Shown here in pieces: positions 5,597 through 39,600 of a stretch of DNA of 53,531 nucleotides. The position numbers and the translations under genes were made by a program. Every line of letters begins with the position of its first letter. The stretch's first letter is position 1. This DNA is from Cochliopodium minus. Taxonomy: Eukaryota > Discosea > Himatismenida > Cochliopodiidae. The stretch is taken from positions 1 through 53,531 of the forward strand of contig JAMYWO010000052.1 of assembly GCA_024220525.1 (NCBI GenBank), read 5' to 3'. A model generated the notes under the pieces. It ran no database searches. It was not told the DNA's origin and saw only the letters and a program-made list of their open reading frames with translations.

Positions 5597-7497
5597 ATGG
5601 AGGATATTCTTAATTTCAATAAGAATAAATTAAAAACACCTATTAACACAAATATCTTTCAGCAGTTGAATTTATTTTCAACAAGTAAAAGAAGAGAGAA
5701 AGATAAAGAATTAAACGATATAAATGAACATTTTCCCAAATTTAAATCACCGCAAGATAGAAATAAAACATTGAAAGTGACCTTATTTCAATCCAGATCC
5801 GTCAAAAGTGAGGGGATCCATCTATTAATTGAAAAAGAAATTGAAAATTTGTTGATTGATGAACAAGAGAAGCCTGATCTAATCATGTTTCCTGAAAATT
5901 GGTAAATAAAAAACATATCCTCCTATATAAATATCTCAACATATCAAATTTTACAAACTTTACTGAGCAAACAATAAAAAATTAAGAATTTAATCAAAAT
6001 TAAATTAAAATAAAATATATCTATTGTTAATCATTTAAATTTCATAAAGATATTCATCAATATACATTATCAATTATTCTTGAAATCTCAAGATATAAAC
6101 AGATTTAGAAAATTTGATGAAAAGAAATTACATATAATCAAGATTTATGATTTCCGAGTTTTATAAACTTAACATATTAACTCTTTAAATCAGGATGTGC
6201 TTCGTTTTGGAAACAGATAATGTATTGGAACATCCAATATTCAAATCAATAGCAGAAAAATTAAAAACACATGGTATTGTGGGTAAATTTTAATAATCTC
6301 CTCTCTTTAAAAAAAATATTCAAATAAAAAAAAAACGAAATTAAATTATCAAAGCATGTTTGGGAACTTTCAGAGAATATTGCAGAGTAGAAGAAAAAAT
6401 GAAAAATTATGTTACGGGGGTAATCACAGGGAATACAGGAGATGTGATCGGGAAATATAGAAAAAGAAAACCAGTCAATATTGGTGCACATGATGAGGGT
6501 TCTCTTTTAATATTTTTAAAAAATTATTTTTTCTATTTAAAAACAAATAATTTTAAAAATTAAAAAAAATATTCAACAAAATTAAAATTTAACAAGAATC
6601 ATAAAAACAAAATAAAATGAATCTAATAATCAAAAAAAAAAAATGTTCAAAAATAATAAATTTCATTGAAAGGAAGTGAAGTTGGATGCTGGAATGTAAA
6701 TACTAATAAAGGAGAAATAAAAGTGGCCATGATGATTTGTTTTGACATAGAAAACGAAGATATTTTCAACGAAACGATGGAAAAAACTCCCAAAATCTTG
6801 TTAAACCCAACCTGGATCCCTTGTAAAAAAAATATTTTTTATTTTTTTTTATTTTTTATTTATTTTTAATTTTTTCAATAAATTTTGAAAAAAAAAATTA
6901 AGCGCCAGGAAATGATAAAAATGTTTCTATTTTTAAAAGTAATTGGAGGATTGGAATGGAAACTATGTCTAGGAAATTTGAAAAAATTGTTTCAGACACA
7001 AACACAACCATAATAAGGTTCAAAAAAAAAAAAAAACATTTTTTAATTTTAATATTATTCATTATGGTTTTTATTCATTTGTATTTAATTTATTTAAATT
7101 ATTTTTATTTTATTTTTTAAAAAATATTTTATAATTTTTTTTTCTTTAAAGGTGTGATACTTCAAAAGATAGTGGCGCTTTTGGAACGAGTCAGTTGATA
7201 GACGCTTACAAAACGGAGTACATTCCCAACTATAATGGAACAAGACATTCTTTTATGGTAGAAATGGACTTGGAGAACAATGATTTTAGAAAAATAACAA
7301 AGCCTCCAACAGTACCCAGAACTGCGCTTAGAGGTTTTTTTAATAAGATTATTGTTAATTTTTACTTATTTTATTTTTTATTATTTTTAATAATTATGTT
7401 ATTTTAAATTTTTATTATTTATTTTTCGTTAATTCTTTTATTCTTTTATTTTTAATATTTACTTATTTAAATTTTTTTATTTTATTTATTGTATTTT

Positions 7498-7529
<32 letters not shown>

Positions 7530-8708
7530 TTTTTTATTTATTTATTTATTTTATTTGTTAATTTTTTTATTTAAATTACTCAAATAAATTTTTATTTTTT
7601 CATTTATTATTAAAATTTTAATTATTTTCATTGTAAAGATAACACAGGAAATCGTTATACAGTTTCTCATCTTTTTGGAACAGAGAGTTCCATTTTCGAA
7701 GCAAGTTTTTTGGACAGAATGATTGTGGGAGTTTCTTCCTTAGATAAAACGATCACTTTGTTCAACCAATTCACCACTGACGTGAAAACTAAATTGAAAT
7801 TTGAGAGCGTTCCTCTTTCTCTCACTAAATCAAGCAATACTTCTTTTTGTTCTTCTTTTAATGATCATTATTTGAGGATTTTTGATTTAAACACATCCAA
7901 AACAATTTCTGAAATAAATTGTGGAGAAGAAAACGGGAAAACATGGAAATTATTGAAAGAAAGTAAAAAAAAATATATAAAAAAAATTTAAAAACTATTT
8001 TTAAAACTATTTTTTCAAAATTTTTTCAAATATTTTTCCTAATTTTTTTTTTTTTGTATTTAATTAGGTGAAAATGATACTATTTGGGGAGTAACTTTGA
8101 AAGGAAAAATATTTCGTGTGGATGCAAAAGAAACTTCTTCAATTCATACTTTCCCACAAAAATCACCATCAGGACCCTCGTACTCTTTCTCTTTCGTCAA
8201 AGAAGACCAAAATCTCATTATTAACACTTCAGGAGAGAAATTAAACATCTGGGACAAAAGAAAAATGGATCAAACAGTGTCTTGCTTTGATAACCCTTCT
8301 CCTTTCAATTTTGTTACCTCTTTAAACAATAAAAAGTTAATAACTAGTGATTCCTGTGGGAAAGTAAAACTTTGGGACTTTGATGGAAATGTTTTGAATG
8401 TGTTTTCTCCTCATGGTGATGCTGTTATAACTTCTATTGTTCCCTTAGAAAAAAAAGAAGGCTTTTTTGTTTCTTCCTCTTCTGATTCTACTTTGAAACT
8501 TTTCAAATTTAACGAAGAAAAGGAATTATCTCAAGTTTTTCATACTTTTAAAAGCCATTCTTTGCCTTTGTATGGTGTCAAATTGAATTTTGAACATGGT
8601 GGTAACAGGATGATTTCTTTTGGTGAAGAAAATACTTGTAAAACATGGAAATTTACTTCTCATTTAAAGGATACTCCCTTGCATGAATTATTATTGGATG
8701 ATCTTTAA
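5597..8708 (+). CDS. nitrilase-superfamily (carbon-nitrogen hydrolase) domain fused to a seven-repeat WD40 propeller
   Basis: Eight exons (5597-5901, 6194-6282, 6355-6498, 6673-6822, 6903-7017, 7152-7333, 7639-7962, 8068-8708) keep one frame and encode about 649 residues. Residues 60-320 are a CN-hydrolase domain: Glu100 in FPENW, Lys168 in GKYRKRKPV and Cys202 in MMICFDIENED are the expected Glu-Lys-Cys triad, followed by NPTWIP and a late GTSQLIDAY strand. Such enzymes cleave amides or nitriles; the substrate is unknown. Residues from about 329 form seven WD-like units, including LNIWDKRK, VKLWDFDG and LKLFKF, each about 40 residues as a closed propeller needs. The switch from enzyme to propeller occurs at the exon 6/7 junction, and exon 7 has no upstream ATG of its own that keeps repeat 1, which supports one fused protein. 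The WD part probably tethers the enzyme to partners. A possible alternative is two genes with an unseen start. Confidence 0.82.
7499..7560. repeat. TTTA microsatellite in intron 6 of the nitrilase-WD40 gene
   Basis: Repeated ATTT/TTTA units lie in a 305-base T-rich intron (7334-7638). This intron separates the enzyme half from the propeller half. No other feature is visible in it. Confidence 0.8.
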
Positions 8709-8863: not shown

Positions 8864-9852
8864 ATGGAGAATTCAAACTGTGATATTGATGTATTAATTC
8901 AACAAAACAAAGAAAAGATAAACAAATTGAAAGAATCCATCCAAGATATTTACGATGAAAAGAAGCACGATGATTTATTTTTGTTAAGATACTGTCTTTC
9001 TCACAAGAAAACTTCCAAAGCAGAAAGCTCAATCAGATTTAACGTGGATTATCGAAAAAAAAATGAAAGTTGGTTGAAAGAAGCAGTAAATGGAGAAAAA
9101 TCAGCACCCCATTATGGAATTATAGGTATGATTTATAATATCTTGTTTAAATGGAATTAAAATCTATTTTAATAAATTTAATAAAAGGAAAACATATTTT
9201 TGGCGGAATTCATAAAGTGAGTATTGAAAAAGGTCAACCTGTTGTTTTTTATAGGAGTGGTTTGGCAGACTTGAAAAAGGTATCAGATTCTCTGACTGTT
9301 GAGCAATTAATTGAGTTTATGGTCTTCCAGAGAGAAGTTTACCACGTAAAAAATTTATTTTTTAAAAAAAAAGAAGCTGTCAAAATTTTATTTTCAAAAA
9401 ATTTTAATTTGAATTATTTTTAAAAAAAGTTAATTTGTGATGAATTGACAAGAAAAAGCAGAAAACTTATAAAATTGATCATTATTAATGATTTAGAAGG
9501 GTTTTCCATGCTTTCTAATGACAAAAAAATGTTTAAAAGTGGAGGAGAATCATCTAAAATAGGAGAAAAGTTGTATCCTCAATTAGTAGAAACAAATCTC
9601 TTCGTAAACGTTCCCACTTCTTTCAAAATCATATTTTCAATTGCCTCTGTTTTTATGAGCAAAAAATCACTTTCTAAAATGACAATGGGAAAAGGAAATA
9701 CCAAGGATAAGAAATCTATTGAAAAGTGTGAGTATACCTCCAAAATTTTTTCTCAAATTGATCTTCCTACTTTTTTGGGTGGCACTTGTGATTGTTCTGG
9801 AGGTTGTATTGAAAATGTATCAAACGATATCAAAAAGGAAGAATTAAAATAA
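8864..9852 (+). CDS. SEC14/CRAL-TRIO lipid-binding protein, copy 1
   Basis: Exons 8864-9125, 9188-9345 and 9430-9852 give 280 residues. Residues 1-85 are the helical CRAL-TRIO N region (LLRYCLSHKKTSKAESSI). Residues 92-265 are the lipid-binding lobe: GGIHKVSIEKGQPVVFYRSG, then LIIINDLEGFSM, YPQLVETNLFVNVPTSFKII, and the closing LPTFLGGTC. These are the standard landmarks of Sec14-like phosphatidylinositol/phosphatidylcholine-exchange proteins. There is no signal peptide or membrane segment, so it is probably cytosolic. A Cys-rich end (GGTCDCSGGC) follows the lobe. It is followed at 10067 by a close paralogue. The ligand cannot be told from sequence. Confidence 0.85.
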
Positions 9853-10066: not shown

Positions 10067-11078
10067 ATGGAGAATTCTAACTGTGATATTGATGTATTAA
10101 TTCAACAAAACAAAGAAAAGATAAACAAATTGAAAGAATCCATCCAAGATATTTACGATGAAAAGAAGCACGATGATTTATTTTTGTTAAGATACTGTCT
10201 TTCTCACAAGAAAACTTCCAAAGCAGAAAGCTCAATCAGATTTAACGTGGATTATCGAAAAAAAAATGAAAGTTGGTTGAAAGAAGCAGTAAATGGAGAA
10301 AAATCAGCACCCCATTATGAAGTTATAGGTGAGCTCAACACTTGGAAACTTATTTGTAATTTTTTTGAATCAAAAAAAAAAAGGAAAACATCTTGTTGGA
10401 GGAATTCATAAAGTGAGTATTGAAAAGGGTCAACCTGTTGTCATTTTGAGGATGGGATTAGGGGATTATAAGAAGGTTTCTGAATCTCTGACTGGAGAAA
10501 ATTTAGTAGAATTTATTGTATTTCAAAAAGAAGTTTACCATGTAAATCATAATTATATATTTTATTATTAAATATTTATTAATTTATTTATTTTTTTAAA
10601 AAAGTTAATTTGTGATGAATTGACAAGAAAAAGCAGAAAACTGACAAAATTGATCATGATCAATGATTTAGAAGGGTTTTCCATGCTTTCTAATGACATA
10701 AAAATGTTCAAAAGTGGGGGGGAATCCACCAAGATTGCTGACAAACTGTATCCTCAATTGTTAGAAACAAATCTCTTCGTAAACGTCCCTGCAGTCTTCA
10801 AAATCATATTTTCAATTGCCTCTGTTTTTATGAGCAAAAAATCTCTTTCAAAAATGACAATTGGAAAAGGAAATACCAAGGATAGAAATCTATTGAAAAG
10901 TGTGAGCATACCTCCAAAATTTTTTCTCAAATTGATCTTCCTACTTTTTTGGGTGGCACTTGTAATTGTTCTGGAGGTTGCATTGGGGAAGTATCAAACG
11001 ATATCAATAGTAGGATCTCAGATAACAAATGATTTTTCTGAATCAAAATCAAAATATGATTATTTGTTAATTCACTGA
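10067..11078 (+). pseudogene. SEC14/CRAL-TRIO protein, copy 2, with a C-terminal frameshift
   Basis: Exons 10067-10328 and 10384-10541 plus an exon from 10605 match copy 1 in order, length and phase. Exon 1 is nearly identical to copy 1; exons 2 and 3 differ more. Near 10884 one A of a short run present in copy 1 is missing. The frame then leaves the conserved end and stops at 11078 after an unrelated hydrophobic tail. The homologous end (LPTFLGGTCNCSGGC to a TGA at 11030-11032) is still readable in the other frame and shows mainly conservative changes. This points to a very recent loss or a base-call error. If real, the altered end replaces the gate-strand region and adds a hydrophobic stretch. 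The inverted-repeat promoter block is retained. Confidence 0.65.
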
Positions 11079-15539: not shown

Positions 15540-15639
15540 NNNNNNNNNNNNNNNNNNNNNNNNNNNNNNNNNNNNNNNNNNNNNNNNNNNNNNNNNNNNN
15601 NNNNNNNNNNNNNNNNNNNNNNNNNNNNNNNNNNNNNNN
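15540..15639. other. assembly gap (100 N)
   Basis: Exactly 100 N, the usual placeholder for a gap of unknown size. It separates two divergent genes, so their order and orientation here rest on scaffolding. Confidence 0.99.
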
Positions 15640-18721: not shown

Positions 18722-21355
18722 TTATTTGCTGTTTTGGATGATATCTTTGAGAATCACTTTATAATCCAATTTTTCACCATTAGAGAAAACTTTGACAGTG
18801 GATTTGTTTTGCAATTCACCAGAAATGATCAACTTGGAAAGATGGGTGACAAGATGTTTCTCCAAATATCTTTTCAAAGGACGAGCACCATAAACAGGAT
18901 CATAAGATTGATCAACGATGAATTTGGTAGCAGAATCCTCAATCAAGATATCGATCTCACGATCCTTCAATCTCTTTGCTATCTGATCGATCTGTTGCAA
19001 GATGATCTTTTGCATGTGTTGATATACAAGAGGAGTGAACATAGAGATGGCATCCAATCTGTTGAGAAACTCGGGTCTAAAGTGTTGGCGGACAGATTCC
19101 ATGACGAGTTTACGAGCATCCTCGGTGATTTTACCCTCTTTGGTGATCCCTTTCAACAAATATTGAGAACCAAGATTGGAAGTCATGATGATGACAGTGT
19201 TGGTGAAATTGACAGTTCTTCCTTTTCCATCTGTCAAACGGCCATCGTCCAAAACCTGAAGGAGAATGTTAAAGACATCACTGTGAGCCTTTTCGATCTC
19301 ATCAAACAAAATGACGGAGTAAGGTCTTCTTCTCACTGCTTCAGTGAGCTGTCCACCTTCGTCAAAGCCAACATAACCAGGAGGAGCACCTATAAGTCTT
19401 GCAACACTATGCTTCTCCATGTATTCAGACATGTCAATTCTTACCATGTTCTTTTCATCGTCAAAAAGTTGGTAAGCCAAAGTTTTTGCCAATTCCGTTT
19501 TACCTGTACCTGTTGGCCCTAAGAACAAGAAAGTTCCGATAGGTTGATTAGGTCTTGAAAGTCCCGCTCTGCTTCTCAAAACAGCTTCACAAACTTCATC
19601 GACAGCTTCCTCTTGTCCCACAACACGTTTGTGAACTTCATCAGAAAGGTTGAGCAACTTTTCTTTTTCGGTTTGAGAAAGTTTTTTGACAGGGATTCCG
19701 GTCCATCTGCTCACTATTTCGGAGATTTGATCAGGTCCTACTACTTCGCTGATCAAGGAATCTTTATCTGTTTCCTTTCTCTTCTTCTGTTGCTCTTCCA
19801 AGTTTTGGATTTTCTTCTTTATTTCGGGCAAAGCTCCATACTTCAAATCAGCGACGAGTTGAAGATCTTGTCTTCTTGTTGCAGATTCGATTTTCATTTG
19901 AATTTCGTCCAATTTACGTTTCAAGTCACGGATTTCGTTTACTCTTGAACGCTCCAACTCATATCTTGATTTCAAAGGTTGTAAAGTATCATTAATGCGA
20001 GAAATTTCGTTGTTGACAACTTCCAATCTCTTCAAAGACATCTCATCTTTGTCCTTTTCGTTTTTCAATGCAGTAGCCTCTATTTCGAGCTGCAATTTTC
20101 TTCTTTCCATTTTATCGATATCTTCAGGTTGAGAATTAAGTTGTACACGAACAGACGAACATGCTTCATCCACCAAATCCAAAGATTTATCAGGCTGGAA
20201 TCGAGAGGTGATGTATCTTTCGGAAAGTTGTGCTGCGACAACCAATGCAGAATCTTTGATTTGAACACCATGATGTGTCTCATACTTTTCTTTCAATCCT
20301 CTCAAAATGGAAATGGTATCTTCTATGGAGGGTTCTTTAACGAAAACTTGTTGGAATCTTCTTTCGAAAGCCTGATCTTTTTCGACATACTTTTGATACT
20401 CATCCAAAGTAGTTGCACCAATACACTTCAACTCTCCTCTTGCCAACATGGGTTTCAATAGATTTGCAGCATCCATAGCTCCATCAGTTTTACCAGCGCC
20501 AAGAACCAAGTGGATCTCGTCAATAAACAAAATGACTTTACCCTCACTGTCTTTCACTTCCTTCAAAACTGCTTTCAATCTTTCTTCAAATTCTCCTCTG
20601 TACTTTGCTCCTGCAATCAATGCACCCATATCTAAAGAAATCACCTTGCATTGTAGATTTTCAGGGACATCTCCTTTCACTATTCTCATCGCCAATCCTT
20701 CCACGATCGCTGTTTTACCAACACCTGCAGATCCCACCAAAACAGGATTGTTCTTTCTTTTTCTTGATAACACTTGGATCACTCTTCTTATTTCTTCATC
20801 TCTTCCAATCACTGGATCCAATTTTGATTCTTCTGCCAATGCTGTCAAATCTGTTCCATATTTATTCAATGCATCGTATCCTGATTCTGCTCCCTTGCTG
20901 TTCACTTTATTGTTTCCTCTTATTTGGATTATTGATTCTTTCAGCGAATTTTTATTCAATCCTCCCATCTCAAATGCTTTCATGCAATCATTTTCTTCTA
21001 TGATTGCCAATAACAAATGATCCAATGCCACATGTGAATCCCCATTTTCTTTTGCCAATTTTTCTGATTTTTGGAAAACTCTTATTGTTGCAGGACCAAC
21101 TGATACTTTTTGTGGTGCTGGATCTTGTGATGGTAATCTGACGCATATTTTCGTCAGATTTTTGATTATCTCTTTTGTATTCCCTTTTGCTTTTTCGCAA
21201 ATATTTGAGGCTAATCCATTTTCTTCTTTGAACATTGCCAATGCCAAATGTGCAGGTTCCAATTGTACATTTGAAAAGCTTTTTGCTGATTCTTGTGCTT
21301 GGATAAATAATTCTGTTGTTTTATTTGTCCATTTATCAGTATCTATTTCACTCAT
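18722..21355 (-). CDS. HSP104: HSP104/ClpB-type disaggregase, cytosolic HSP101 form
   Basis: A single 877-residue exon. In order: Clp N domain (1-150, [20 protein letters not shown]); NBD1 with Walker [10 protein letters not shown], Walker [10 protein letters not shown] and pore loop [11 protein letters not shown]; a long coiled-coil middle domain (about 405-530); NBD2 with [19 protein letters not shown] and pore loop GAPPGYVG; and a C-terminal small domain. The family threads aggregated proteins through a hexamer with Hsp70. The middle domain separates it from ClpA/ClpC. No organelle-targeting extension is present, and the protein starts MSEIDTDKW like cytosolic members. It ends QNSK, without the acidic DDLD-type tail of yeast Hsp104. 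It is intronless among intron-rich neighbours. Two heat-shock-element dimers lie 150-180 bases upstream. Confidence 0.97.
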
Positions 21356-21507
21356 TTTATTGATTTATTTGGTTTAATTTCAATTTTTTTTTTTATTTTT
21401 CTTTTGCTTTGTTTTTCTTTTTTTATTTTAAAAAGGAAGAAATTTCATATTTTTTAACCTAAAAATTAAAATTAAATTTTGAAGAGATTTCTTTATTTTT
21501 TTTCACA

Positions 21508-36632: not shown

Positions 36633-39600
36633 ATGTTCAAATTATTATTTGTTATGTTTTTTATTTACCAAACTCTTTCTGTTGGAATTTATGAATTGCC
36701 TTTCTCAAATTTTCCATCGTAAAAAAAAATAAAATTTTATACATCCTAATAATAATTTATCCATTTAGGTATGGAGTTCCATCTGGGCTACAATTTCCAA
36801 GTTATCAAGAAAGAATGACCAATGTTTGGACTAACTTAGCAAGAGTTGCCCCTTTAAATTTTAAATCAGACTATATTATTCCACACGCAGATTCAACGGG
36901 CTCAAATGTAAGAAAATTGTTTATATCCATGAGGAGTTAGAAATAAATTTCCTTATCAATCTTAATTTTCTTTATTTTTATTTTTCTATTTTTGAAAAGG
37001 TTTATAATCTTGGGTCATCTAAATTTCCTGCACAACCACCCATGTATTGGAACTTAAATTTGAACAGACTTGCTAGAGCTCACTCATATGATAGAGGGTA
37101 ATTAAATTTAAAAAAAAAAATTTGGACAAATAAATTTTTTTTTCAAATCATAAAGATCAAATTGCATTGGAAATCAATTCCAAGGAGGAAGTGGACATAA
37201 TGATTGTAATTCAACAAATTTCGGTGTAAGAATTGCAAATTATTATAGTGGAGCTTGGGTAAGAGATAATTATTAATTTTCTAAATTTTTCATTTATTTT
37301 TCTTAAAAGGGAGAAAATTACTTTCAATATGATAATCTCACATGTTATGGATTTGCAAATGGACAAAGATTGTGGCCTTTGCTCTCAATAATGGGATTCA
37401 TTTGTGATGGGGCAGTTGGTAAAAGAATTAATAATCAACAAATAAATGACAATATGATTTTAGATCTCAATTCAATGAGATATATAAAAAATAACCAATT
37501 TATTACTCGATTAAATTGAAAGAATTTTTCACAAAATTTTTAAATGATAGGTTGTGGAACTGGACAAATTTTATTTAGCTGCGTAACTGATGATGGATCT
37601 TTGTAAAACAGAAATTTTTATTCAAAAAAAAAAAAAAAAAGCAAAAAAACTAATTATTTTTTTTAAATAGTACTGGTCACAGGTAAATAGTTAAAAAGAT
37701 AAATAACTAAAAGTTAATGTATAAAAATATAGATCAAACATTATGTCATCTGATTACAATGAATTTTCGTCAGGTTTATTATGGTTCAGCAATACACCAA
37801 TCACAACCCAAAACTTTGGAGGAAATCGTAAAAAAAGAGGCTAAAAAAAAGTTTTTAAATTATTATCTAATAATTTTTTTTTTAAAAAAAGCAACTCCAT
37901 ATTTATTAGTTCCAAGGATAATAACAGCAGCTCACGTGTTTCATGATTTAGCAAGTAATATTCCAAATTTAATATAAAATATTTGGTATTTATTGTTTTT
38001 TACAAAATATAAAATTTAGATCCAAACAATTACAGATACATGGCTATTGTCAGAACAACTGATACTGTTAATTCTGTGCGTGTTTGTGTTGACGGAACAT
38101 GCGAGGCTTTGACTTTTTATGCGGGAATAAGCGCAAATGTGGGTGTTTATCAAAGTGGTGTCAAAACTCTTACAGGAAGTTGTCCCACTTATAATTTCCA
38201 ACTCACTTATAATACAATCCTCAATGAACTTTATCCTGTTTTGGGTATTATGTTTATTTTATATTTTGATTGTTATAATTATTAACTTTTTTTGATTTAA
38301 TAAAAGGATATTTTCAGTTGTACGATTTCAATACTTGTTTGAATGACTGGACATTAACAGGACCCATATTAACACCCTCAACAACCGCACCCTCAACAAC
38401 CGCACCATCGACAACCGCACCATCCACACTTAGACCTTCAACATTAACACCATCCACGTTGACTCCATCAACTTTGACACCATCAACAAATACACCATCC
38501 ACACTTAGACCTTCAACATTAACACCATCCACGTTGACTCCATCTACAACCACACCATCAACAAATACACCATCCACACTTAGGCCTTCAACATTAACAC
38601 CTTCTACATTGGTACCATCCACACTCATTCCTTCTACATTCGCACCATCGGCTGTTCCTACTTCTGCTCCGGTCAGGTTTGGACAAAATCATACTCTTTT
38701 TAAAGTTCTTCAGTTTTTAACAATTTTTTTTTTTAGCTGCACAAACACTACTCAATGCGATGATTCTAATGTTTGCACGATAGATATGTGCAGTGGTGGA
38801 TTATGTACCCGTAGTCCTTTCGTCTGTAACGACAGTAATCCTTGTACCAATGATTCTTGTGATCAAATCGCGGGATGTCAGTACGTCAACATTCATTGTG
38901 ATGACTCTAATGCATGTACTCTCGATTCTTGTAATACCACAACAGGTAAACTATTATTCTTCAATTTATTTTTATTTTGTTGATTATTTTCTTTCATTTT
39001 TTTTTTTAAAGGACAATGCCAACACACTAACGTTGTTTGCAATGATAATTCTTTGTGTACACAAGATTCATGTAATCAACAAACAGGATGTGTCTTTTTG
39101 CCTGTAAAAATTTTTTTTATTGTTATTGACTTTATAAAAATTTAAAATTAATTTATACTTTCATCGAAATAGATTACTTGTGATGATGGAAATTTATGTA
39201 CTGTTGATTCTTGTGTCACCACTACTGGGTGCTTATTCACGAACATAACTTGTCAAGATAACATTTCCTGCACAACCGACAGTTGTGTTGCTGGAAATTG
39301 CCAATACATAAACAATTGTAATGATAACTTGCCTTGTACAAGCGATGTTTGTAATTCAGATGGAACTTGTTCATTTAACAACAATTGTAATTTTTCTTTT
39401 TTTCTATTTTTATCATTTTTTTAAATCTTTTTTTTTAAAGGTAACGATAATTTGGCTTGTACTGCAGATACTTGTACATCAGGAGGATGTGTTTTCTCAA
39501 ATACTTGTAATGATAATATAGCTTGCACAACAGACACTTGCACATCAAATGGGTGCAACTACACAAGCACCTGTAATGATAACGATTCATGTACCAATGA

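Follow-up and report, generated by a model that had tools for sequence, protein, structure and literature searches.

In the 53,531-nt stretch of Cochliopodium minus DNA that was analysed (the window), an eight-exon gene was found that probably encodes a single protein of 649 residues, in which an amidase of the nitrilase superfamily is followed by a WD40 propeller that would dock the enzyme on a partner protein. The window belongs to a contig of 181,895 bases (C52) in an AT-rich genome of 44.65 Mb in 598 contigs. Splicing of the exons between 5597 and 8708 (Table 1), at GT–AG introns throughout, yields 1950 nt in one open frame of 649 amino acids plus a stop codon, which bears out the eight exons of consistent phase proposed in the initial annotation of this DNA. 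In a codon model, the frame of the gene model was positive in all eight exons and both other frames were negative; the absolute values of this model are rough, since its training set comprised 6084 codons from 11 frames, several of which are WD40 proteins. Aligning a Devosia carbon-nitrogen hydrolase to the DNA also recovered the junction between exons 2 and 3.

Table 1. Exons of the nitrilase-WD40 gene and the intron at its domain boundary (window coordinates)
Feature	Coordinates	Strand	Content	Basis
Exon 1	5597..5901	+	N-terminal extension of about 55 residues, then first nitrilase strands up to Glu100	open frame, splice sites
Exon 2	6194..6282	+	nitrilase domain	open frame, splice sites
Exon 3	6355..6498	+	nitrilase domain, Lys168 within GKYRK	open frame, codon score, protein-to-DNA alignment
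Exon 4	6673..6822	+	nitrilase domain, nucleophile Cys202	open frame, Pfam, codon score
Exon 5	6903..7017	+	nitrilase domain	open frame, codon score, alignment
Exon 6	7152..7333	+	nitrilase C-terminal end	codon score; aligned with C-terminal parts of NIT2 and the Devosia enzyme
Intron 6	7334..7638	+	domain boundary; 305 nt; donor GTTTTT; acceptor TTGTAAAG; 5.9% G+C	
Exon 7	7639..7962	+	presumed propeller closing strand, blades 1 and 2, start of blade 3	coding score
Exon 8	8068..8708	+	remainder of blade 3, blades 4–7, stop codon	open frame, WD40 matches

Intron 6 lies between the nitrilase half and the WD40 half, and it is here that the gene model has to be weighed against two adjacent genes, namely a nitrilase gene that ends within the intron and a WD40 gene downstream, with no fused product. 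Such an arrangement would have a usable end, as read-through of exon 6 adds a 24-residue run-on and reaches a stop at 7405-7407 to give a nitrilase-only product. A distance of about 300 nt would also fit the local gene spacing (intergenic gaps of 155 and 219 nt were measured), and the donor GTTTTT is unusual, being found in none of the six introns of three conserved genes (SKI8, RPS3A and the Ras gene), all of which have GTA donors. However, the coding signal resumes at the acceptor at 7639, 80 nt upstream of the first in-frame ATG (7719), and a separate WD40 gene would therefore need a start codon further upstream. The 26 codons preceding Met 7719 have a coding score of 17.4 bits, compared with at most 7.5 bits in noncoding 78-mers (240 overlapping ones from the window), and two segments encoded upstream of 7719, RYTVSHLF and SSIFEASFL, look in our reading like the outer and first strands of a WD40 blade. 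Neither the 305-base spacer nor the frame ahead of 7719 offered a usable start codon for the whole propeller; the single ATG of the spacer (7334–7638), at 7396, meets a stop after two further codons. Furthermore, the composition of the spacer is intron-like, its G+C content of 5.9% standing beside 5.0, 7.5 and 8.6% in introns 4, 5 and 7, and 16.5–27.0% in six intergenic samples. Composition alone is not decisive, because introns 1–3 (18.2, 15.3 and 10.9%) overlap the intergenic values; three other parts of the window also have stretches of 250 nt with a G+C content of 7% or less. The phase is kept across the intron (phase 1 at the end of exon 6 and at the entry to exon 7), an agreement expected by chance in about one case in three. 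Based on the open frame and phases, the coding signal ahead of the in-frame ATG, the lack of a usable ATG in the spacer and the intron-like composition, the DNA is best read as a single nitrilase-WD40 gene, and we consider two adjacent genes quite unlikely.

The donor site itself finds a parallel elsewhere in the genome. GTT donors are present in three of the seven introns of the window gene (introns 3, 5 and 6), and protein-to-DNA alignment of the NIT2-like gene on contig C58 places GTT at the start of two of seven introns, including one with the donor GTTTTT, which favours the reading of the window gene as one gene. Alternative donor/acceptor pairs around intron 6 also preserve the frame, so that the exact junction is less certain than the fusion. 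Frame, phase, coding signal and composition all speak for the in-frame junction of nitrilase and WD40 domains proposed earlier, a stronger case than could be made in the initial annotation, and the particular splice pair is the less sure part. A single locus might also make two products, with retention of intron 6 or early polyadenylation giving a soluble nitrilase and splicing giving the nitrilase-propeller form. The in-frame run-on to the stop, the weak donor and the T-rich intron (67% T) would suit this arrangement, but some run-on arises from any retained intron, and we regard a second product of this kind as unlikely.

By sequence, residues from about 60 to 328 of the spliced protein are a nitrilase-superfamily (carbon-nitrogen hydrolase) domain with a Glu-Lys-Cys triad. 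The Pfam family CN_hydrolase (PF00795) matched with an E value of 1.1e-9 and 38.4 bits (cut-off 23.2), over residues 90-229 only, and a Pfam scan of the whole protein at E <= 10 returned, besides this family, WD40-type propeller families and a weak match to Tectonin. The three catalytic residues named in the initial annotation were recovered at the same positions in the spliced protein, each in its motif context: Glu100 in MFPENW, Lys168 in KYRKRK and Cys202 in MMICFDI. The PE, YRK and IC(Y/F)D motifs are kept in an alignment with NIT2, the Devosia enzyme and a paralogue from the same genome. Matches to NCBIfam models were weak, the best being Lnt (22.1 bits) and formamidase (22.0 bits), and all lay far under the cut-offs. 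Among solved structures, no significant match to the nitrilase half was found (aliphatic amidase 2uxy, E 0.22). In alignment points, the nitrilase half reached 64 against the Devosia enzyme and 45 against NIT2, while the NIT2-like gene on C58 reached 284.

Divergence of this order would also suit a nitrilase half that is catalytically dead and serves as a pseudo-enzyme for oligomerisation. In two collections of non-eukaryotic sequences, genome_contigs gave 13 pattern matches and no relative at E <= 1e-3, and the plasmids gave one weak, nitrilase-only match, from Devosia, with 26.0% identity over 49% of the query; the restriction of the Pfam match to residues 90-229 is in keeping with such a pseudo-enzyme. 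Nevertheless, Glu, Lys and Cys are all retained in their motifs, and loss of catalysis appears improbable to us.

The remaining residues, 329-649, constitute a divergent WD40 region by sequence comparison, for which a layout with seven blades can be drawn, the number being part of the layout and not a result. The WD40 family PF00400 matched at 29.5 bits (cut-off 27), and the best match of the WD half among solved WD40 chains was 2ymu (3.8e-23). With a WD-repeat profile derived from human SKI8 blades and WD frames of the same genome, partial matches were obtained in five of the seven blades, and blades 3 and 7 were placed by eye and by alignment to SKI8. Blades 2, 5 and 6 scored 9.5, 6.1 and 7.8 bits, above the best shuffle shown (5.4 bits), whereas blades 1 and 4 scored 2.3 and -0.9 bits, below it. 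The complete propeller of seven units that had been proposed is thus borne out only in part: the WD40 homology is clear, five blades match partially, and three of these beat the best shuffle shown.

Several comparisons bring the WD half close to SKI8 (WDR61), and if it were a fast-evolving paralogue of SKI8, the fusion would connect the amidase with the SKI or PAF1 complexes. Human SKI8 aligns collinearly with residues 71-297 of the WD half (4.1e-8), and a profile of two SKI8 sequences (human and own-genome) gave the WD half 42.1 bits, compared with 8.5 bits for the best of 1000 shuffles. In a register test with human SKI8, the score was best in or near register (local score 132, compared with at most 103 for shifts of at least two blades), but the genome's own SKI8 gave no register preference. 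Moreover, WDR33, DAW1 and a G-beta chain match the WD half as well as SKI8 or slightly better, and with exon 8 the score of WDR5 equals that of SKI8. The best genomic match to human SKI8 is an ordinary SKI8 gene on contig C144 (8.3e-46; 49% and 43% identity), whereas the window gene, at 24.7 bits (E 1.9e-4), ranks behind many other WD40 frames. With this separate gene in the genome, the propeller does not serve as the main SKI8 of the cell. Identification of the propeller as SKI8 was rejected in view of the far better candidate on C144, the similar scores of other WD40 families and the inconsistent register preference, and descent from SKI8 as a fast-evolving paralogue is very unlikely in our estimate. 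We therefore call the WD half a divergent WD40 propeller, with no family assigned to it.

One copy of the fusion was found in the genome, and a search of the genome for paralogues of the nitrilase half matched only its own exons. A search of the genome with the PF00795 profile yielded 13 exon matches on seven other contigs; the window's own nitrilase was not among them, so nitrilases with short exons may escape this search. At seven other nitrilase loci (7-8 kb each), no WD40 frame was found at E <= 0.01 when the WD half of the fusion and human SKI8 were compared with frames 35 or more amino acids long, a limit that passes over shorter exons. The closest values were 0.049 in locus L038 and 0.36, on the opposite strand, in locus L035. 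In another of the seven loci, L032 (G000:C41:80000-88000), 2849 of 8001 bases are N beside a NIT2-like gene, the aligned frame of which contains one stop. No relative was found in viral_contigs, again a collection without eukaryotes. Among the listed titles and abstract openings from the open-access literature, no description of a nitrilase-WD40 protein was found, in line with the initial annotation, which knew of none; in one paper the terms nitrilase and WD40 occur as separate table entries (PMC3218866). The fusion is a probable new combination, with two known domains in a new order, where undescribed in this literature is not the same as absent from eukaryotic proteins.

Genes with introns in the neighbourhood and the genome include those for eukaryotic ribosomal protein S3A (archaeal-eukaryotic S3Ae family), Ras and CRAL/TRIO domains, and they mark the genome as eukaryotic. 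CRAL/TRIO (Sec14-like) genes stand in tandem at 8864-9852 and about 10067-11078 of the window, with blocks 94, 86 and 79% identical at spacings of 1175-1203, the last frame of the second copy being 10572-11078. A second tandem, of MAPEG-family gene copies, is located on the minus strand at 1118-1857 and 2169-2905 (blocks 99 and 89% identical, spacings of about 1050). An intronless open frame of 880 residues for a ClpB/Hsp104-type disaggregase occupies 18722-21364 of the minus strand, in intron-rich surroundings. In the frame at 38279-38983, three stretches of Dicty_CTDC repeats (PF00526) come after a long Thr/Ser/Pro repeat, and an assembly gap of exactly 100 N (15540-15639) falls within a coiled-coil-like frame.

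Known nitrilase-superfamily enzymes act on small molecules in most cases, and nitrilase domains associate as dimers or tetramers. Most likely the fusion protein is a small-amide amidase docked on a partner through its propeller, the docking being the part that we infer. By analogy with the amidases of the superfamily, Cys202 would attack a small amide at its carbonyl, with ammonia or an amine as the leaving group, and the acyl-enzyme would then be hydrolysed. Contacts between nitrilase domains would produce an oligomer displaying two or more propellers, and these may dock on a partner protein and keep the amidase close to its substrate or to the pathway producing it. A propeller placed at the nitrilase C-terminal end and displayed several times per oligomer could bind such a partner avidly. 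The functions suggested in the initial annotation, in which the propeller is the target of the amidase, its scaffold or a binder of the acyl group, are possibilities drawn from the fusion itself. Because superfamily enzymes mostly act on small molecules, the propeller is less likely to be the target of the amidase; a docking module is the more likely role. Taken as a Rosetta-stone fusion, the gene would link a carbon-nitrogen hydrolase, so far unlinked, to a propeller-based complex: the WD40 propeller would position this eukaryotic amidase on a specific complex and so name its partner, with intron 6 at the domain boundary as the seam, a possibility that we put forward tentatively.

With each of the known nitrilase fusions, NitFhit and NAD synthetase, the joining of domains indicated a genuine functional link. 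If true, the nitrilase-WD40 fusion would offer a lead on where an orphan amidase acts and on its partner protein. Confinement to one species would make it another instance of domain shuffling in a genome rich in introns, of little consequence.

Among the closest precedents is NitFhit, in which a nitrilase of branch 10 is fused to Fhit in fly and worm; it is a functional nitrilase fusion (PMC9913352), of the kind that the initial annotation appealed to. As in NitFhit, the nitrilase domain of the window protein is N-terminal to a second domain in a single chain, and the Nit domain of NitFhit touches the fused domain in part through its C-terminal strands (PMC9913352). Different from NitFhit, in which the second domain is a nucleotide hydrolase, the second domain here is a WD40 region; the HIT family of Fhit is absent from the Pfam scan of the protein at E <= 10, and the nitrilase half has, by its sequence, no clear membership of branch 10. 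Glutamine-dependent NAD synthetase likewise has a nitrilase-like domain, a glutaminase fused to a synthetase, as half of a two-domain protein (PMC3376133). Unlike in that enzyme, the partner domain here is a propeller with no assigned catalysis, and with the NCBIfam model for NAD synthase the protein reaches 15.8 bits, where the cut-off is 479. The window protein has the PE, YRK and IC(Y/F)D motifs in common with omega-amidase NIT2 and related carbon-nitrogen hydrolases, and its catalytic residues come in the same order; it differs from them in its low similarity, a longer loop after the Cys strand and the WD40 extension, and a separate NIT2-like gene is present on C58. Similarly, the WD half resembles SKI8 and other seven-bladed WD40 proteins in its WD40 repeats and aligns collinearly with most of SKI8, whereas it is far more divergent than the SKI8 of its own genome and is fused behind an amidase.
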